This document shows, piece by piece, positions 4,243-63,210 of a DNA stretch of 64,000 nucleotides. The stretch's first letter is position 1; every line of letters begins with the position of its first letter. The position numbers and the translations under genes are program-made. This stretch comes from Syncephalis fuscata (taxonomy: Eukaryota > Zoopagomycota > Zoopagomycetes > Zoopagales > Piptocephalidaceae). The stretch spans positions 1 through 64,000 of the forward strand of contig JAHLTZ010000063.1 in the NCBI GenBank assembly GCA_025786725.1, in the 5' to 3' direction. The notes below the pieces were generated by a model, which saw nothing but the letters and a program-made list of their open reading frames with translations, ran no database searches and was not told where the DNA came from.

Positions 4243-4878
4243 TTATGCTTTAATACATTTAATCTTTGCGCCCTGTTTGCTGCATCTTTGTGCTGCTTCT
4301 GAAAGTGGTCTCTTGGTGATATGGGTTATGGCGGCAGATGCTGGTCCAGATAACCATCCAAGACCAGGGACAAAATTAAAAACAAGTCCTGCAGTCTTGC
4401 CAAGAGCTGTTGCTGCTAATTCTCCGGTCTTTTCTGGATTTGCTGCAACTGCTGCCTGTAGTTGTCCTGGGGCCTTCACGGCAGCTTCCACAACCTTGTC
4501 TTTGGCTTTATCAGTGATATTGGAAATTGCTCCTCCAGCCTTTTGAGAGGTATTGACAACTTCGTCTTTAACCTTATTAACAGCGCTTGCAGCCTTGTCT
4601 TTGGCATCCCCAATGCTATCCTTGACCTTGTTTGATACCTTCTTAAACGGATTTTTAATTTCGCCAATAATATCACGTTTAGCTAATTCGATTGCACCTT
4701 GCGCCGAGTTGTCCAGTAAAACCACCACGTCCCCTTGGTCTATAAAAGACACACTTTGGCTTGTTTCAAATGCATTTGGAAGTGGAGCAGCATTGGTGTA
4801 TGGCGCGATATTGCCGAATGCAGCCAATTGTGCCAAAGCACCAATAATGAAGATAGAGCGAACCGAGAAAAAAACCAT
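4243..4878 (-). CDS. Secreted amphipathic helical-repeat precursor
   Basis: Single exon, 211 aa, family not recognised. The ATG at 4878 was chosen because it starts directly with a hydrophobic signal peptide (about residues 1-31, ending near TNAAP); the frame stays open upstream. A short pro-region ends at a dibasic Lys-Arg at 67-68, a likely Kex2 site. The mature part carries Lys/Asp/Ala-rich amphipathic repeats such as KVKDSIGDAKDKAASA and KAKDKVVEAAVK, which resemble the 11-residue periodicity of LEA or apolipoprotein-type helices. A glycine-rich hydrophobic stretch follows at about 160-185, and two cysteines lie near the C-terminus (199, 208). A good TATA box lies upstream. It may be a secreted helical or membrane-interacting protein; the function is unknown. 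Confidence 0.75.
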   Translation of the reverse strand: MVFFSVRSIFIIGALAQLAAFGNIAPYTNAAPLPNAFETSQSVSFIDQGDVVVLLDNSAQGAIELAKRDIIGEIKNPFKKVSNKVKDSIGDAKDKAASAVNKVKDEVVNTSQKAGGAISNITDKAKDKVVEAAVKAPGQLQAAVAANPEKTGELAATALGKTAGLVFNFVPGLGWLSGPASAAITHITKRPLSEAAQRCSKQGAKIKCIKA

Positions 4879-7375
4879 TTTTGTTTTGAAAATTGCGTGT
4901 TTGTCTAGAAAATCGGTTGATGTTTGTAAGAAAAGACCAGCTTTTCGAGTAAAGTTGTTCGTGAATGAGTAATGGATGAGTGAGTAAGTGAGTAGTGAAT
5001 GAGTTGATGAATTATTGTATATCTGCCATTGAAATGTGGCGTATTTATAATAATTAAATATTAGGTGTGTTATACTGATTATAGTGTAATCATGAAACAA
5101 ATAACAAGGCACATGGCGTTTTGTTTCTTTGTAGTGTCTGCGTTGAAATATAAAAATAGATCTACCTTGTAGTACAATAACACTTGCAAGCACAAAGAGG
5201 TGGCAATAAAACACACAATGTTCATCATTAAAGAAATAGGCATTGTTTGCGTCAGAAAGGCGTTTAACTGTTAGATCGAGTCATTTTACGCAAGTCGTTA
5301 ATAACTAATATAGAAATAGCATGTACTATTTTATTTAAATAATAAATTTTTGTAGCAGTTTTCTTAAGCTACTCGTAGATATATTGACTACAATATAGTC
5401 CATGGCATAATTAGCAATTATAGTTATGCTTTTGCAAATAATGTAAATTTAATTAGAATTTACCTTGCTGCACATAAATAATTTGCAATAAACTTTTATC
5501 AATTAATGATGACTATGAAGTGCATTGTTTATTAAACGAGGTTATGTCTATTTTATTTATTTCATTGTGTAGTATTAGTAAAATTTTTGAAGTTGTAACA
5601 TAACAACCAATTTAATACAAGCAATTTTACTGCCGTACCATTATCAAGTCATGGCTATAAGGAAACAAAGAAAAGAGCCAAACGTATTATGGCTTGATAA
5701 AAACAGCACCCGTGATTTAACTACGCAAGTATCAAACATGGGTTATAATTTAAAACACCTGCTTGGTGTTAAATCCCTTATTGGTCTAACAGGCTTAACA
5801 ATTAATACTTGATTAAACCCTGAAACTTATTTGATATACAACAGCAAGTAAAGCTTTCATAATTAGAATTTTATTGTGTTTATTATTTAAATGACTTGCG
5901 CTTAAATAGATCAAAATTGTTATAGATCAAGACTAAAGCTCATAAGAAATGGTACTGATATAATTAGTAGAAAAACACTTAAAAACATTGTACTGACAGA
6001 AATTACAACCATCTATAAATAAAGTAAAACATATGTTACTATAACCTAATGTCAATAAAAACTTATGAACTGGGTAACTATTGTCTAGATTATTAGATAT
6101 ATTACATTAACAGTTATGCCATTTTGTATTGAAAAAATGTTCTATAATTCTATATTTGCCTATATTGTATACAATTTTCGGAGATGGGTGGTGAGTGGCA
6201 TCAAAGTCTAAACTATTATCATCATAGATTTATTATCAGTATGCGTATATCCAGTATACATATATCCTCACTCACCTATATCGTTAACAATGTATGCCTA
6301 TAGTTTTATATAGCACCCTGCGCTATACGGAATACACCATATTGTTACAGGTTCAATTACATATAACCTGTCAAATGAATGCGGCAAAAGAATGGAGATT
6401 TATTAATAATAGTACTAGAACAAAAATAAAAGTAGCATTAGATACAAAAAGACTATGCAAGTATAGAATGGTATATAAAATGATAAATGAACGGTAAGAA
6501 AGCATATAAAACAATGTCAAAGCTATAGTGCATATAATGCAATAAGGGGAATGAGTAAAGTGTAATGGAACATATAAACAATGGAATATGTCTAGTATAT
6601 CATAAAATGATATATAGTAGTGTGGGACAGAATAAGAACAATATAGATTGATAGAAAATATATGTATACTGAGTATATATATATATATTGGATAATAAAT
6701 CTACGATGATGCGTATTTTGGACCCTGATGTGAATTACTCCTAGTTTCATGTTCAGTAGAAAGAAGGTTTAATTTAAAAGATGAATATTATCAAATGTAA
6801 TCATTTGACCACCAAACAAACAATAAATGACTAGTAAATTGTTTAATGTACAAAGAGATTATTTTTATTTAATTAATAAATGAGATGATACATACAATAG
6901 GATAATAAAAGTCATAAATCAAATGGCATTGTACATAAAAAGCCTATAAACAAATTAAAGTATCGATAGAGTTGTTCAAGTGGTGGGATATAAAAAAGAA
7001 TAAACATCAATTGCATAAAATAAAGTATAATTATAGAACATGTCAGCAGTAAAACAATGATGTATAGGAATAATAGACAACAAACAACAAACAATAAAGA
7101 CAAATATATTCATAGAACAATGTCATCAGCAAAATAACAAGAGTATTTTGAATAGGTTACTATCTTGCTAGCCACGTGTAATGTTGAAACAATGTTTATT
7201 TTAGCTCAAAGTTATCTCTGTTTAGACGGTAAGGTGATACCTTGGCAATAGTGGTCTCAGCTATCAAAACAAACAGATCCTTATTCGCTTTTTCGTTCAA
7301 AAACACGCTCAAATACATTGGTTCTCGTTTCAATCGCTCGTTAACACAAAAGTTGCTGCACAAGCTGATAATATT
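4879..7375. other. AT-rich intergenic region
   Basis: Leader and promoter of the secreted-protein gene at the left, then about 2 kb of very AT-rich DNA without a convincing gene, with a short TA-dinucleotide run near 6677-6690. The last stretch before 7376 is the presumed promoter of the CCDC9-like gene. Confidence 0.5.
5042..5050 (-). promoter_or_regulatory. TATA box of the secreted helical-repeat gene
   Basis: Reads TTATAAATA on the minus strand, 164 bases before the chosen start codon. The leader in between holds imperfect GAGT(A/G) repeats (about 4965-5010 on the plus strand). The identical 9-mer precedes the secreted kinase-like gene at 53177. Confidence 0.6.
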
Positions 7376-19308: not shown

Positions 19309-20088
19309 AATAAGCAAGAACAATAGCAACAGTAGTAAAAGTAATATTGTGATGTTGCAAAGTTTGTGTTATTGTGTTTAAGGTATCAGTGTTTAAAGGT
19401 GCCAAGAAACATCATGTTTTGTTTTGGAATGATCGACGAAAAGAATTTGGTCCAATATGAATTGTATACTTGACCCAATATTGTTTTGGTTTTACATTTT
19501 TGTATAAAAATATTGTCGTGATCTATTATAGTGTAGTCTTTATTGTTTATTTTATAATAGCATCAGGTTCATGTTGTACTAAGGCAAGCAATTAATTAGT
19601 AATTACTAACGCTTAGGTGATAGAAGTAAGCGTAAACAAGACGCTAGCCATTAAGTTGATAGCTGTTGCAGTAGTCTTTTTTTAATGTAGTATCTATACG
19701 AGTGCTATATATTATTTACCACTCACATAAAATCGGTATAAATCAAGTTGTTTTTAGCGACAGCTTCAAAATTACTTTTATGGATTATTAAAAATTTGAA
19801 ATTCATAGACGGTATTGATTCATCAGCAGTTTTATACACTGTTTTACCAGTCTTTACGGACAACTAAGAATAAAAAGTGTGCTCTGATTTTTCAATGTAT
19901 TACTGCAGTACAGACAATAAATTTTATGCATAAATACTGGTTTGGGTCCTTACTGTGCATATAGGCTTGTAAACTACTGAATTTCAGCTTTTTTTATATC
20001 TTTCACAACAATACTTTATTTATTGCGCATCTTCATATATTTACACTAAACTAACTGCGAGTATATCCAATAGTGGCGCTGTTTTAAA
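19309..20088. other. Divergent intergenic region
   Basis: Promoter region between the SMP/C2 gene and the orphan membrane protein gene. AT-rich; no gene seen. Confidence 0.5.
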
Positions 20089-21104
20089 ATGTCACCGCCA
20101 CAAAATGTGAATACTGCTTATTTATATCCGATGGATGCTTACGAAACTGTGGAGTTATTCTCCACCAGTTTGAAAGAAATGCGAAAACAGCTAACACGTA
20201 TTTGGATACATATTATAGTTCATATTATTATGAGCTATGTTCAAGGGCATAACATCAACATTGCCCTTCGATTGGTTATAGAAAAGCCGCGAGCACTTGC
20301 AAGATGGTGCTGTTTAATGCCTTCAGTTTTATGTATTGGTATATCGATACTTACAATCATGTTCGACTTTGCCAAAGTCTTTTATATGGATACATTAGCA
20401 CTTTACGCTGGATTTACCGTCCCTATCTCCATTATGTGCTACAGTATCATTTTGCTGCAAAAAGCATACACTATGTCCCAGAAAAGTCGTTGGGTACTTG
20501 TAATAGGCATAATGTTAATTATCCTACAAATAATAACTCCCGTTATAATGTTAAACGTTGATGTTATGGCTAATTTTGAATTGTATCGTCGTGGTTTTTC
20601 TCATTATCCAAAGGAATTGATTCTACTATGGTTCTGCACATCTCTTGCTGTCAACTTATTTCTCTCGTCTGTATTCAGCTACACTGCCTATAAACAATAT
20701 CGTAAGTTTGGCTCTAAAACCTGGAGGTACCTAGCTAGCGATGGCATGGAATCTATGTGTCTTGTTATACTTTGTAATACAATATGTACCATTATAATGC
20801 TTTCTAGTAGTTCCAGAATTATTTTTACACTTTCCTATTTTATTGACTGGTAAGCATAAGCATAAGCAATATCTTTTTTATATTTACATAAAATTATAAT
20901 AGCTCAATCTGCTCAATAATCTTGATCGAAAACTGTCGTAAAACACGCAATGTTTTAATGAGGCTAATCGTCCAAAAACCGAGAAAATGTTTTATATTTC
21001 ACAAATACCATCGCCAATGCATGAAGAGACAAATGCTAATACAGCCAGCCAACCGCCTATACCGTATCATAATTAATATGTCTATAATATTATGCGATTC
21101 TTAA
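20089..21104 (+). CDS. Orphan polytopic membrane protein, GPCR-like layout
   Basis: Two exons, 20089-20849 and 20903-21104, give about 320 aa. I do not recognise the family. Six or seven hydrophobic segments are visible, including CCLMPSVLCIGISILTIMF, ALYAGFTVPISIMCYSIILL, WVLVIGIMLIILQIITPVIM, ILLWFCTSLAVNLFLSSVF and LVILCNTICTIIML, separated by short basic loops, with a basic C-terminal tail of about 55 residues. Size and spacing are like a seven-helix receptor, but no GPCR signature (DRY, NPxxY) is evident. It could equally be an orphan fungal transporter-like protein. The start is the first ATG, followed by a short polar N-terminus without a signal peptide. Confidence 0.65.
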
Positions 21105-31262: not shown

Positions 31263-32791
31263 CTATTCAATAGACCAGCGTTGGTCTCGCAAATGCGGGT
31301 CACTGAAAGCATGACCACCATTACCAAGTTCATAATCGGTATGGTCTTTGTTTCGTTGTACTAGATACATATACATTAGCGCTCATGCTTGTTATAGATA
31401 ACTTTTACTACTTACATCGAATTTTCAAACCTTTACCGAAATTCTTCAGAATAAAGAATGAAGTGGCAAGCAAAGCAACGCCCATAAGCAATGTGATGAC
31501 CGCTATCAATAGCAATTTTATAGCAATAGTATATATCGTTAGCCATCTATCTTGATCAAACAAAGTTACTTACCGAATAGTGTAAGAAAGATACGAGCAC
31601 CGGTATATAAGTCGCAGTTATTAGTTTTTCCAGTGCTTGATTTACATGGGTGATCCAAAATAATATTCCTATTATAAATCTTTGCCAAGTAATATATCAG
31701 ATAGGTCATTGTACCAACAACGCCAACCACAAATGCATAGATGCCATATCGGCTTTCTACTCGAGCTGCCCAGAATCCCACAACAAATATAAGAATCGAG
31801 CCACTGATTGAAATGACCGTATGTAGAATCATGTTATTATGATCATCATTGTAGTAAAATAAATACCAAAGCTGTCCTGCAAATGCCAAAAAAACAAATA
31901 TACCAAATTTAAGAATGGTTACAAAAATCTGGTAAAGTCGGTACATGCCTATATTAATAAATAGTCCATCAATCATTGATAAGATTAGTATCCCAATAAC
32001 ATACACACACACATATATATATATATACATACGTCGTATATTAAGATCAGCACCAATTTTCTTATAGATCCGCCAGCCAAACTCTTGAAATAAATGCCAT
32101 GCCTGAAATGCAAAAGTAATAGCCAGAACAGCCATCACAACAATAATGGCGATTTCTAGACCCATCGATGCATGATGAACATAGCTGTTTACGTTTGTCC
32201 GTAGAGTTTGAATATCTTTTTCAACGATCATATTCGATGTTTGCCAAAGTTGTACCACTGAGTAACAAAGACTGAGAAAGTTAAAAATACCAAGTCCAAT
32301 GATCTGAATTGTATCTTGGCGAAACACCTAATAATACCAATCAATATCATCGTATTTACAGTATTACCTAGTAGTAATAATAATACACTTACCGCATCGA
32401 TACAAAGTACAAATTGGAATACTTGAGCCACGATAAAAATCAAATGATAGGCCGAAATAATTGCTACTTTTTGTAGATTTGCATCATTGCCCAGAAGCAT
32501 ATAGTATGTATCAATAAATCCTGATTCTTTTCGATGAATTTTGTAAACGTTGGCCTCCATTGTAATAATCACTACTGCTTGTATGATAGAAGATAGCAAT
32601 GCTAATCTTACATATAATGAATTTTTACCATTCTATAGTGCAAATATATTAGATATCTTGACTAGATATATTAGATAGATAACACTTGCCTGTCCTAAAA
32701 ACCAATGGTTCTCCAATGGTACAAACCGTCCAATCTTGCGAGTAATAGGACTTCGACTGCTACTAGAGCCCGGATTACGGCTTAATGCCAT
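31263..32791 (-). CDS. UPF0658-family Golgi membrane protein
   Basis: Fungal multispanning protein of unknown activity, annotated in fission yeast as a Golgi membrane protein. Exons are 32690-32791, 32393-32632, 31574-32327, 31416-31502 and 31263-31360, giving 426 aa. Seven or eight membrane segments are visible. Family-typical blocks include FIVAQVFQFVLCIDA, VFRQDTIQIIGLGIFNFLSL, AWHLFQEFGWRIYKKIGADL followed by RRMY, and a C-terminal hydrophobic helix (LMGVALLATSFFILKNFGKG) with a cytosolic tail ending RDQRWSIE. The first intron has a GC donor (GCAAGT). A YIYIYVCVYVIGILIL insertion encoded by a TA/CA microsatellite inside exon 3 is unusual; it may instead be an intron that my model retains. 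Confidence 0.85.
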
Positions 32792-51699: not shown

Positions 51700-53096
51700 T
51701 TAGAGCTTGGAATTGGATGGCATGGTGGGTACTGGATTGAATATGCTCAGAGTTGCTCTGTAGTTCTTGGCAACCTCTTCTGTCGAAGGGCGCTGTCCAA
51801 TATTGGGATTAAGCATAGTGTTCATAACGGCAATAAGCGGTCTCAATAATGTTCGGGCATTGGCAACCATAGCATCGTAATTCCGCTTGGCACTGTTGTA
51901 AATAACTTGTTGGCTCGAGTCTTTTGCAAGAGATTTAGCCTTACTCATCTCTGTTCGAAGAGAGACAAGTTCCGGCGATTTAAAAAAGTTATCAGGGAGT
52001 GTTGCTTTGGGATTATAATTGCGTTGGCATCTTGTTCAGATAGCATCTTGTATAGCACAGCACCAGTGGCCCAAGCAAGTTTCTTGGTGATAATGTCTTT
52101 TTGTCTCCTTCAACAAGGAAGCCAGGTGTTGCTACATCTTGTATATTTGTCGTTGCTGGAAAGACATACATCGATGCCTCTAGCTTTCCATACTTGTCAG
52201 TATTTAAGCAAATGTCTAAATAACCAGTTAGTTTAATAGGTATGTGCTGTAGTAATGAATAGTAATCAGTTACTTACAATCTGGACCAAAGTTTTTATAC
52301 AAAAGACCTGCATTTCGCATAAAATTTATGCCTATACGTTGATGATTAGAATTGAATAACAACAATAGCAATAATAACAATGGCAATCAAAGCATTACTT
52401 ACCTTGAACAACTTGACCAAATAATGGTCCTAGCTTGTTTGCCTTTTCTTCAATCGACAATCTATTAGTGTAGTCCATGAGTTTGTGGACGCAAGTGTTT
52501 TTTGTAACAAAACATTGGTGAGATTTTTTTGGAGTATCGGTAGTGAGAAGTAGTCCGCTAATGAACTTCAAACCATTAAGATCAATGTTTCTAACGCGAA
52601 TTGATGGATCTACTGGCTTGCCGTTTTTAACATTCTGATAATTGCCCACTCTCTATATTTGCAAGATTAGATGGCGTGACTAGTGACATTAAAATCTACC
52701 TTTGCAACTATGTAACGGTTTGGTACTGTTTTCATTCCAGTAGGCACACATCGGATTTCACCTTTAACTCCATTATATACTGCTTCTGCGCCAGGTATGC
52801 CAAATTCATCAACAGGTAGACGTTTAGTGATTTGTAGCTCAGAATTGCCAAAAACATTAGGCGTGTTAAATTGGACTGAGGTAAATGGATCTGCGACTAG
52901 CACAATATTTATTAGTTAGCTGATATCAATGTAGCCTTGGTCAGCTATACTTACCGTCATCGTTAGTAATAGCACCAGACTTGGGTGTATTGGTTGTGGA
53001 TATAGGGTTGGTTGTGGCCACTTGTAGACCGTCAGTTAGGCCTGCAAGGCATATGGCCGCAACAATAGAGAGAAGCGTAATGTTTTTGGTAGTCAT
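51700..53096 (-). CDS. Secreted pseudokinase-like protein (two apparent frameshifts)
   Basis: Exons: 52955-53096, 52700-52896, 52403-52652, 52278-52331 and 51700-52215, about 386 aa once the frame is followed. Residues 1-24 form a signal peptide (TTKNITLLSIVAAICLAGL). A Lys-Arg at about 72-73 precedes a region that follows the order of a protein kinase fold. It has a degenerate glycine loop (AVYNGVKGEIRCV), a VAIK-like NRYIVAKV, GPLFGQVVQGINFMRNAGLLY leading to YKNFGPDYICLN where HRDLKPENILL is expected, VATPGFLVEG near the activation-segment end, KLAWATGAVLYKML like the DxWSLGxxLYxM block, and a final MLNPNIGQRPSTEEV. The catalytic HRD aspartate is Asn and no DFG is seen, so an inactive kinase is predicted. 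Two single-base shifts lie near 52098-52102 (five-T run) and 52010-52030. Confidence 0.65.
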
Positions 53097-54150: not shown

Positions 54151-56442
54151 TTAAACACTAACATCTAGTCCAATGCTTTTAAGCATCTTTGAGCCATGCA
54201 GACTAAGCCAGTAGTCTGCAACCAAAGACACGCGCAAGTTTTCGCGCTTTGCGTATTTGTGAAAGACCTGTCGACAATCGGGTTGGCTTTTGAATAGAGA
54301 GTGCACTAGTGTAAAGCTAGTATTGTACAACTGGCGCACTTCAAAGCCGGATGCTTTGGCATGGTTTTTTGTCTATTGTTCCATATAAACAATAGTGATT
54401 AGCCTATTGTATAATATCACCATTGCTAATAATTACTTACCCATTCTTGCTTTCCTAAAATGCCACGGGCCAGATAATAAGCACTGGCCGCAAGAGTGGA
54501 GGTGGACACTAAAAGAAACCGATGATCCAGTAGAGCTACTTCTAGTAGATATTTAGCCATAGCACGGATTTCCTTGTCCAAACTGTCAACGATCGATAGC
54601 TGACGTATAAAGTTGAGTGGGCTAGGCCAGCCAAATTCGTAGCCTAGTATGCTAGCAATGTATCGTTCGGACGATTTTAAATCTTCAACGGTAAGTGTAT
54701 TTCCACTCAACTCTGCAAATGTGCTAAATGCTGGCACACAACGTTCTTCGTACTTGCAAGCCAATATTAAACTGCCAGCACCGACTAATTGTAGTCGCTG
54801 TATTGATGCGTTCTTTTTGCTCAAAAAGCGGTCAAGAATATTAACACTAAGAAATAGTGTTTCTGGTAGCAATTCTAGCTTATGATGGACTTCAACCATC
54901 CAATCGATCAACTGTGTTCGCATATGCCATTCCAACTGTGTCTGTCGACTCATATAATTAGGATCAGGATGGTATTTTTTCTAAATAAACGTTAATCGAT
55001 TAGTTATTAGCCTGATTGTATACTTACTTCTAGCTCAAGCATGTATTTAATAATGTCCTTGGCATATTCAGCGACATACATTGGATCATCTTCAATGTCC
55101 TGTTGATTTAAAGATGGCCGCTCATTACGTGTTCTTGTTTCTGCCGCTGCTTCTTCTTCTTCTGCTGCCGCTGTTGCCTTATTATTAGTAGTAGTTGTAA
55201 TAGTTTTTCTAATTGGCCGTTGAGGCTCAGTAGTTGTAGTGGTAGTTTTTGGCGTTTTGCTTTTAGTAGCTTTTGGACTATCTGTTTCACTGGTAGCATA
55301 TCCAGCATCCGAGTGAGTTCGTGCAGCTTTATTGGTGGCATGCGACGACATTGAATCAATACTTAGCATTGATAATCGAGATGATGGACAAGGACGTGCA
55401 TTAGGTAGTAGTCCATCCTTGTAGGTAGCTATATATCCTGGCGATAGCTCTTCTTCCACTTCGTAATCAGAGTCAGGGTCTGACGAGTGGCCAGGTGGTG
55501 GAGAGGATGCCGGCGTAGTGGCCGGCTCTTTGCCTTTACTATTACTATCCGCAGCGCAATAAGGGATGACTCCATTGGCTGTACTGAATCATGTCCAGTC
55601 GATGTGGACGGGCGATGGACTTGTCGACTCACTCGAGATACATTTGGTGAAATTATCATGTTGTCGGCCGAGTCAACCGACTGATAAAGCTGCTCGTAGC
55701 ACTCTGTTTCGTTTGAGTAGTCTTTTGTTTCGCCTGCTTGTTGGCATAAGGTTTGACAATTCTAATTGGGCGAGGCACACCATTAATTGTTTCGTACGTC
55801 GTTTGAGACGTTGCTGAATTATGCGATGATAATGGCTGTTGTTGACCTTGTAATACTGCACGACTCTGAGTAGGCTTGCCAATTTTTTGAGAACGGGTAA
55901 AATCACACGACTTTTTTAGCTAATTAATAATTGTTAGTAATATGTTATTTTGTTTTCTTTATTACTTACTTCTGATTTGGGTGCCGTAAACTTGCTATCA
56001 AACTGGTGACCGTGGATATATTGGCATAAACACCGCTTTTGCTTTCAATAGCATAGCGTTTTGCAGATGGTTCAGCATCATTTTCTAAATCAGAACGCGC
56101 ACGACGTACTGCAGGTGCAAGAGTGATCGTGGTCACAGGCTGCTGCGCCTGCTTGCTTACTTGATTGCTTTCCGCTGCAGTGGCGGTATCTTTTGCTGCA
56201 CTGGACACGGCCAATGTCAATGCAGCTGCAGCAGAATCTTTAACTTCAAAACGGCCAGCGACCATTTGAGGATAAACAGCTTTACTTGAAGCTTGATCAA
56301 AACATTGATTTGACGTGTTGTCGTTCTTGTGTGCCAGACTGGCGGAGACTGGCGGAAAGCTACTGCTGGCTGGGCGGCCTTGCAATTTTCTCGTCGACGA
56401 TGGAGAGAATATGTTTAGAAAGCTAGTACTGCGACTAAACAT
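54151..56442 (-). CDS. B-type (mitotic) cyclin, N-terminal region unresolved
   Basis: Regulatory partner of the mitotic cyclin-dependent kinase. The cyclin box is clear. Exon 54441-54980 carries YHPDPNYMSRQTQLEWHMR, LIDWMVEVHHKLELLPETLF and LSVNILDRFLS, with LVGAGSLILACKYEERCVP and PLNFIRQLS in the C-terminal fold. The last exon, 54151-54372, ends LKSIGLDVSV. An upstream exon ending at 55028 supplies YVAEYAKDIIKYMLELE. Farther up, acidic and Thr/Glu-rich low complexity is in frame to about 55480, but the segments 55480-55920 and 55970-56442 (start MFSRSTSFLNIFSPSS) do not join in one frame. At least two single-base shifts, near 55555 and 55740, are needed. No RxxL destruction box could be assigned with confidence. 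Confidence 0.85.
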
Positions 56443-61748: not shown

Positions 61749-62119
61749 CTACAGTCCAGCGACAGCACTAAGACCTCGTGTATTGGATCTGCGAAGTAAA
61801 CGGCCTATATGATCTGCTGGATTGACAACGGTCACCTTTGAAATGTTGTTATTGCTTCCTTCAGCGAGGCTATCTTTGACGCCACGTGATGATAAGCCCG
61901 TCCCAGTCGGGAACGGGACCACCGGGAGGTGGTTGGTCGTGTTGTTGATAGCTCTCCCGTTTGACGACTGGTAAGCTGATTCTGAATAGATGGATTGTTG
62001 GTGTTGATACTGGTGTGGCTTTTGTTTTTGTTGCTGTTCGGAATGTAAATGGTTGGGAAATGAATTGTTGGAAGGCCACTGAAAGGATTGCTGGGTGTTA
62101 TTGCCGGTGTGAAACGAAT

Positions 62120-62150
<31 letters not shown>

Positions 62151-63210
62151 TGATTTATAGTCTGAAATCGTTTCTGTTGGCTGAACACGTGAGTTAAAGT
62201 TTAATGGTACATTCTCTCGTGTGTTATCAGTAGAAGTGATTTTAGATTCACCTGTGTCATAATACATATCATCGCTATTTGTGCCATGACTGGATGACAG
62301 TGCTAAATGATGACTGGTTGGATAAGAGCTGGGGGTAATTGCCTGGCTTTTGACGCTATTTTTGCTATTGGGCGAAATAGTGTTGCAAGCATTTACAGCG
62401 TGCAGTTGGGACGATTCACCGGGTATGGACGTCGATGATGCCCTTCGTGCGTATGAATGCTGAGACAATGTGGTGGCCAACATGGTGCGGTGAATAGCGT
62501 GAGTTGGCGGTAGCATTCGTATAGCTACTGAAAATAAATGCGATTCATCAACGGCCAGTGAGAAATCGAGTAAGCGTAGCATTTGACGTTCCATTAATGA
62601 AATCTCCGATGCTGGAAAGCCAATATGATGCTGATCCCAATGATTGTTATTTGGCCAGTAGTCGCTAATATACTTGCCGGCGATAACTAACGAGGCCAAA
62701 AATAGGCGATGTGCTGTACATGTTTGGCCACGCGCCTCTTTGGGCAAACGTGATCGCAAACGATCCAAGAGAACGACAACACACATCAGTGTGCCGGTGC
62801 GCACTCTAGAACATCTCGAGACAAATGCAATAAATGCCTCCAAAGGTGGAGGGGGAAGGCCGGAACGGAATGCACCAATAGAAGCGTCGATTGGCTTATT
62901 GCTGGATGCAGACGAAAGTCGATGAGAGCTATTGCGCGACCCTGACGACAAGGAATTAAGAGCAGCAGCGGGTAGCATCTCAGGAACTACGCGATTAGCA
63001 GATTCGGCCACCAGTCCTAAAGGTAAAATATATTGGTTAATACATGTTGCGATTTGGCCCATATAGTAATAGCAACTTACTAATAAGATTATCGGAAATA
63101 TCTGCAGAACACACCTCTCTCAACATTGTCGAATCAATCATGGGATTAGGCAGATTAAAGGTGTTGCCTTCGTGACCCATAGATGCTTTAGCGCTTGATC
63201 CAGGTACCAT
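61749..63210 (-). CDS. PHO80/PCL-type cyclin with poly-Gln tail
   Basis: Cyclin of the Pho80/Pcl group, which activates Pho85-type kinases (CDK5-like) in nutrient or polarity control. Two exons, 63081-63210 and 61749-63016, give 465 aa. The 64-nt intron contains an in-frame ATG, so a single-exon reading from 63062 is misleading. The cyclin box spans about residues 80-210: LEAFIAFVSRCSRVRTGTLM, VVLLDRLRSRLP, TAHRLFLASLVIAGKYISD followed by YWPNNNHW, and MERQMLRLLDFSLAV. These match PCL cyclins, including the Asp/Tyr-rich turn after AGKY. The C-terminal half is disordered, Ser/Asn-rich, with a ten-glutamine run encoded by CAG repeats. The specific PCL subtype is not decidable. Confidence 0.88.

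Follow-up and report, generated by a model that had tools for sequence, protein, structure and literature searches.

Toxoplasma offers the best-known case of a parasite that uses secreted kinases and pseudokinases as a tool set. In animals, kinases of the FAM20/VLK type are kinase-fold enzymes of the secretory pathway with pseudokinase partners, and among early-diverging fungi the CotH proteins of Mucorales are secreted and related to kinases. For the Toxoplasma rhoptry kinase family (ROPK), the sections of the published account available to us describe a catalytic triad altered in about half of the members, pseudokinases scattered over the tree and a family disulfide, with some inactive members acting through other proteins (PMC3682881). 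Here we describe a gene from a stretch of 64,000 nucleotides at the start of contig JAHLTZ010000063.1 of Syncephalis fuscata (assembly GCA_025786725.1; hereafter the window), which, judged from its sequence and those of its relatives, very probably encodes a secreted pseudokinase of a Syncephalis family. Syncephalis is a member of the Zoopagales, and S. fuscata is a soil fungus that parasitizes other fungi. In the portion at hand of a single-cell genome paper, the Syncephalis species covered there is regarded as an obligate mycoparasite (PMC6784888).

The gene is deposited as BDF19DRAFT_499577 (P0002, 339 aa), and the closest relative of its product is the paralogue BDF19DRAFT_445966 (P0001, 349 aa). 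Kinase landmarks occur along the protein in the right order, as a preliminary description of the locus had recognized: an alphaE and catalytic-loop segment (QVVQGINFMRNAGLLYKNFGPDYICLN), the alphaF block WATGAVLYKML and RPSTEE near the end. At the places that matter for catalysis, the VAIK Lys is replaced by Arg, HRD by YKN, KPEN by GPDY and the DFG Asp by Val (VFP), and P0001 has Arg, YTN, GPDY and ILQ at the same positions; neither protein retains the VAIK Lys, the HRD Asp or the DFG Asp. With all three catalytic residues replaced and profile matches to kinases, the domain appears to be kinase-like and inactive, in agreement with the initial proposal. Two particulars of that proposal have to be revised. 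The lysine of an IVAKV segment had been taken for that of VAIK, a place that aligns to GEIRCV and thus to Arg, with IVAK lying further on, near alphaC; and while YKN does occupy the HRD place, the DFG place, reported as not seen, does align.

The kinase resemblance was assessed at several levels. The first 253 residues of the window protein score 101.9 bits against a family profile from which this protein and its paralogue were left out, compared with at most 4.4 bits among the 767 of 1000 shuffled controls that were given a score (767, 969 and 706 shuffles were scored, from 1000 each), and the resemblance therefore goes beyond chance. The profile comparison with kinase families that had been proposed as a check came out in favor of a kinase relationship: the paralogue matches Pfam Pkinase (PF00069) at E 8.5e-4, which falls below the curated cut-off, and profile-profile alignment of the degenerate pair gave a prob of 92.5 and E 5e-7 with 17 ordinary kinases, over the C-lobe only, and E 2.6e-12 with nine motif-keeping Syncephalis kinases. 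All 14 of the 14 divergent family members match PF00069 at E <= 0.01. A structure model of the paralogue, predicted with low confidence, likewise resembles kinases by Foldseek, its alignment containing kinase relatives.

The protein opens with a strongly hydrophobic stretch, MTTKNITLLSIVAAICLAGLTDG, which the preliminary description had read as a signal peptide, and its paralogue and most relatives likewise have a strongly hydrophobic start; secretion of the window protein is something that we infer from sequence alone. The dibasic site described alongside it fares less well: the KR pairs of the joined window protein stand at residues 72, 113 and 327, the only KR of the paralogue is at 347, and no window pair has a counterpart there. 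A hydropathy of 2.0 at the start is passed by 40 of the 43 family rows, all but L066, L077 and P0006 (the startless P0010 was excluded), and by 8 of 118 control proteins, although the 40 are not independent, given that exon 1 choice in the automatic models favors hydrophobic starts. The deposited models are independent in this respect, and those in which the start is present open with a hydrophobic stretch, which in P0006 lies further in; the P0003 and P0010 models begin inside the domain. No KDEL-like retention signal was found in the 44 family rows.

A pair of cysteines provides a second family trait. The beta3 Cys, directly after the VAIK position, is present in 42 of the 43 rows holding that part, and it occurs together with the beta5 Cys in 41 of the 42 family rows in which both columns are aligned. 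Among 118 proteins treated as ordinary kinases, for which a motif search replaced the family-profile check, none of the 60 with the motif found had a Cys after the VAIK Lys, and none of the 44 of those with the hinge found had a beta5 Cys. Because beta3 and beta5 are neighboring strands of the kinase N-lobe, a disulfide between them is a plausible prediction, one that would suit an oxidizing environment. The four cysteines of the mature window protein all precede the DFG place. Each feature that defines the family is present in this protein: a hydrophobic exon 1, the N-lobe motif F...LN....FG...L.I, and both the beta3 and the beta5 Cys.

Membership in a large family was missed by the preliminary description, and the search for paralogues in the same genome that it had suggested returned both the close paralogue P0001 and a family of at least 38 loci. 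Exon-by-exon genome searches, with gene models built at the fetched loci, placed 38 S. fuscata loci in our comparison table, a number that is a lower bound for candidates and of a kind that near-copy contigs could inflate. Its 44 rows are completed by six proteins from two other species, S. plumigaleata and S. pseudoplumigaleata. The 42 automatic models came from 40 stretches, two of which yielded no model, and nine were excluded as fragments or poor joins (L060, L067, L081), as copies (L070, the second L051, the second L077) or in favor of a better model (L045, for which P0005 was used; L052, L019; L082, P0004). At L051 (C289:48500-55000) two near-identical kinase-like genes lie inverted to each other, a few kilobases apart, and tandem copy pairs are present at L077 (C223) and L050 (C289).

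The catalytic triad is kept in 25 of the 38 loci, typically as HND, HGD or HSD with DFD or DYD, and at least one of its residues is lost in the other 13. The degenerate loci also include L055, L063, L066, L069, L072, L073 and L075-L079, in which HGG, TLRN, HNH, YGN, HSN, QYY, TDKE, NNS and HNN replace HRD; L076 keeps an Asp at that place (MSD) and has lost the Lys and the DFG Asp, and L073 has lost the DFG Asp alone. Several routes to the pseudokinase state seem to have been taken, as far as these sequences indicate. L065 was rejected as a degenerate locus and counted as intact, a missed exon carrying IIDYD, and the automatic model L050p1 lacks the loop Asn owing to its exon join. All six proteins from the other species are of the intact type, with HND or HHD and DFD (the beta3 part is missing from P0010). 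On a tree of a quick kind, with many long branches, the family (43 rows, two of them identical) is separated from nine ordinary kinases with a Shimodaira-Hasegawa-like approximate likelihood ratio test (SH-aLRT) value of 99, and the window protein pairs with P0001 at a support of 99. A minimum of five changes between the intact and degenerate states is needed on this tree; subject to caution over the long branches, the state therefore changed repeatedly.

Database searches recover mostly the same proteins. In a protein search that scored only candidates with shared five-letter words (3679 scored), no protein other than P0001 and the window protein itself matched at E <= 0.01. The S. fuscata model C226:218507, used as a query, found 10 proteins at E <= 0.001 (3775 candidates), nine from Syncephalis and one kinase. 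A profile search based on an alignment of 14 members yielded 180 proteins; among the 120 listed, the only new Syncephalis protein besides P0005 was P0013, which equals model L078, and the other 118 were classed as ordinary kinases by their Pfam annotation. Deposited members of the family are named just "hypothetical" or "kinase-like domain-containing". A pattern scan for the beta5 motif gave 57 and 54 matches versus 39 and 38 in the control and was dropped, and a plasmid search found nothing.

Several observations weigh against a secreted pseudokinase. Pfam searches with pieces of the window protein, at E <= 10, give no kinase and just a match at 0.11 to an unrelated model, and family member L011 (the locus of L077) is without any Pfam match. 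The paralogue model has a predicted local distance difference test (pLDDT) value of 56 and a predicted template modeling (pTM) score of 0.53 even with kinase relatives in its alignment, its Foldseek TM-scores are just 0.34-0.42 by query length, and a model from the two degenerate sequences alone (pLDDT 32) is uninformative. The sole ordinary kinase domain that the family profile aligned has a beta3 Cys, at the alignment edge, and no beta5 Cys. In the L083 and P0006 rows the hydrophobic stretch comes after residue 45; the L083 model starts upstream of a better start, and P0006 has an N-terminal extension. Finally, the frame of the window copy is broken in the present assembly.

Since catalysis appears to be lost, the protein would work by binding a partner, as a putative scaffold or effector. 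The partner may be an active secreted member of the family, whose activity the pseudokinase would tune, or a host protein, and the family would most likely work at the interface of parasite and host, in the way that Toxoplasma employs its rhoptry kinases and pseudokinases. Taken as a whole, a secreted pseudokinase that binds a partner, in a family positioned at the parasite-host interface, is the explanation that we modestly favor, and for a host-directed role by itself we see about even chances. A more far-reaching version is tentative: that an arsenal like that of the rhoptry kinases evolved independently of Apicomplexa, comprising some 40 or more secreted, disulfide-stabilized kinases and pseudokinases that act in or on the host fungus, with degenerate members tuning active ones or serving as decoys for host kinases. 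If this holds, a large, diversifying family in a fungus that parasitizes fungi would be a convergent case, and it would supply Zoopagales mycoparasites with a set of candidate interaction proteins. With 25 intact and 13 degenerate members side by side in one genome, the drift from kinase to pseudokinase can be compared directly. No such fungal secreted kinase-like family was found in the literature searched, the scope of which left most subscription papers outside. The available text of the S. pseudoplumigaleata genome paper deals with proteases, chitinases and secondary metabolites, and in it "kinase" occurs twice and no word begins with "secret" or "effector" (PMC6784888).

The main rival, which we regard as less likely, places the family on the fungus's own surface or in its secretory pathway, where it would phosphorylate wall, surface or luminal proteins, with the pseudokinases as structural proteins of the surface or as allosteric partners. 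In animals FAM20A plays such a part for FAM20C, and CotH proteins coat Mucorales spores; pseudokinase partners of secretory kinases are an established arrangement. A signal peptide by itself says nothing of a host target, and no result here singles out the host over the fungus's own wall or secretory pathway as the place where the family acts, a point that counts against the host-directed role. The lack of a KDEL-like signal across the 44 rows argues the other way, as does the strong diversification in copy number and sequence within one genus, a pattern more typical of host-interaction families.

The frame breaks raise a different question, namely, whether the window copy is a decaying pseudogene, with the paralogue alone still working. 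An unbroken reading of the last exon is untenable, as the preliminary description implied in speaking of a frame-corrected protein: its frames run to about 52103, from 52100 to 52021 and from 52020 to 51700, and without the two frame changes, near 52100 and 52020, the reading ends early. In the paralogue the last exon is open throughout, with no interruption. Ratios of nonsynonymous to synonymous substitution rates (dN/dS) between the two genes are 0.40 (239 codons), 0.08 (26 codons) and 0.26 (81 codons) for the three successive stretches, versus 2.67 for a control in which the middle stretch, KDIITKKLAWATGAVLYKMLSEQDAN, was shifted by one base in both genes. With dN/dS below 1 and an intact paralogue, all three stretches have therefore been coding since the gene pair split. 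The deposited P0002 leaps from EAS to ICQRNY and so loses the DFG and alphaF region; the extra intron that this model evidently places over the frame-broken stretch was rejected, since that stretch is conserved and the paralogue codes through it.

The assembly itself offers an explanation for the breaks. The paralogue has a second, near-identical copy on a contig of 15.7 kb, and over 3216 bp this copy is set apart from the long-contig one by 14 substitutions and 19 one-base gaps, in the one copy pair checked for such gaps (C125 vs C135); 15 of the 19 gaps are bases absent from the small contig, so that one-base losses look like a common assembly error, and 6 of the 19 fall within the gene span. 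We conclude that the frame breaks of the window copy are probably assembly artifacts. Small contigs also repeat long-contig loci elsewhere (near-equal matches for C125 vs C135, C162 vs C289, C25 vs C90 and C205 vs C223), and these are probably copies left uncollapsed, with read errors still in them, which would inflate gene counts and break frames. A pseudogene is thus improbable: the two frame changes and a deposited model without the stretch between them, and more, speak for it, and a very recent break may be compatible with the dN/dS values, yet these values stay below 1 in all three frames and one-base losses look common in this assembly.

It is more improbable still that the protein retains catalysis or nucleotide binding by unusual chemistry, like some so-called pseudokinases; for some pseudoenzymes, active-site residues that have migrated are suggested in the sections available of a published account (PMC10211241), but the window protein and its paralogue alike have replacements at the Lys, at both Asp and at the loop Asn. 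That the kinase resemblance is due to chance and the fold is something else is barely credible, the missing Pfam match of the window pieces and the unconfident model of the degenerate pair being set against the profile score over shuffles, the PF00069 matches of the divergent members, the profile-profile alignments and the series of intermediate forms that this genome contains.

The exon model behind the secreted pseudokinase reading (Table 1) is supported by our own splice of the paralogue, which equals the deposited P0001 (100% over 100%); introns 1-4 of the window gene measure 58, 47, 71 and 62 nt.

Table 1. Features of the probable pseudokinase gene, in positions of the window
Feature	Position	Strand	Basis or remark
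Pseudokinase gene	51700..53096	minus	ATG to stop exactly; five exons, all introns GT-AG
Exon 1	52955..53096	minus	Start codon, signal-peptide-like stretch, Thr/Ser-rich linker; N-terminus identical in NCBI P0002
Signal-peptide-like stretch MTTKNITLLSIVAAICLAGLTDG	53028..53096	minus	Hydropathy 2.99
Exon 2	52700..52896	minus	N-lobe beta1-beta3; gene model and alignments
Arg-Cys of GEIRCV	52748..52753	minus	VAIK Lys place (Arg) and beta3 Cys; alignments
Exon 3	52403..52652	minus	alphaC region to alphaE; gene model
beta5 Cys codon (SHQCFV)	52512..52514	minus	Cys in 44/44 family table rows
Exon 4	52278..52331	minus	alphaE end and catalytic-loop equivalent; gene model
YKNFGPDY replacing HRDLKPEN	52214..52299	minus	Split by intron 4 (52216-52277)
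Exon 5	51700..52215	minus	C-lobe, three frames; paralogue's exon continuous
MYVFPA, DFG equivalent	52154..52171	minus	Alignment
Stretch between frame changes, KDIITKKLAWATGAVLYKMLSEQDAN	52021..52100	minus	85% identical to paralogue over 26 codons
Stretch after second frame change, NYNPK...SKL, to stop codon	51700..52020	minus	dN/dS vs paralogue

Directly upstream of the gene, at 54426-54980 on the minus strand, lies a cyclin gene (Cyclin_N, 1.4e-37), and a second cyclin-like frame, judged by eye, is found at 61749-63119 (minus). An open frame at 4243-5280 (minus) has an internal Met start, after which come a hydrophobic stretch and a part that is rich in Lys/Ala, looks helical and holds a KR site; it has no Pfam match and may encode a further small secreted protein. 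Two multi-helix frames of strong hydrophobicity, at 20074-20853 (plus) and 31566-32327 (minus), gave no match in a Pfam scan and are perhaps divergent membrane receptors, and a similar-looking hydrophobic frame adjoins a kinase-like gene at L017 85-852.

When set beside the systems already described, the apparently secreted Syncephalis family is most like the ROPK family, which in the published sections at hand is a parasite's kinase-fold family that is secreted, expanded and lineage-specific. According to those sections, the ROPK disulfide joins the end of alphaF and the alphaG-alphaH insert, whereas the Syncephalis Cys pair lies in beta3 and beta5, and the position of its cysteines leaves the window protein without the alphaF "WC" disulfide of ROPK members. 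ROPK is moreover apicomplexan (coccidian, with rhoptry export) and the Syncephalis family fungal, with kinship supported just at the level of the kinase fold; because the disulfide is elsewhere and the organism different, we do not claim ROPK membership. CotH proteins, which are secreted, are likewise kinase-related and fungal, but the Syncephalis family matches ordinary Pkinase, and no CotH appeared among the Pfam matches of the window pieces (E <= 10) or the paralogue (E <= 1). FAM20/VLK kinases are likewise absent from the listed Pfam matches, and most Syncephalis relatives keep an ordinary HxD and DxD. Pkinase_fungal (PF17667) is matched by 7 of the 14 divergent members at E <= 0.01, but PF00069 outscores it wherever both match in the tables viewed in full, and the paralogue matched PF00069 alone. 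The direct relatives of the window protein are thus the Syncephalis proteins P0004-P0011, which share its N-terminal layout, its C-lobe and, where that part is present, its Cys pair (22% identity between the window row and P0004 by BLASTP, over 348 columns, E 1e-8), and which keep the Lys (P0010 lacking that part), HND or HHD, and DFD, none of which is kept in the window protein.
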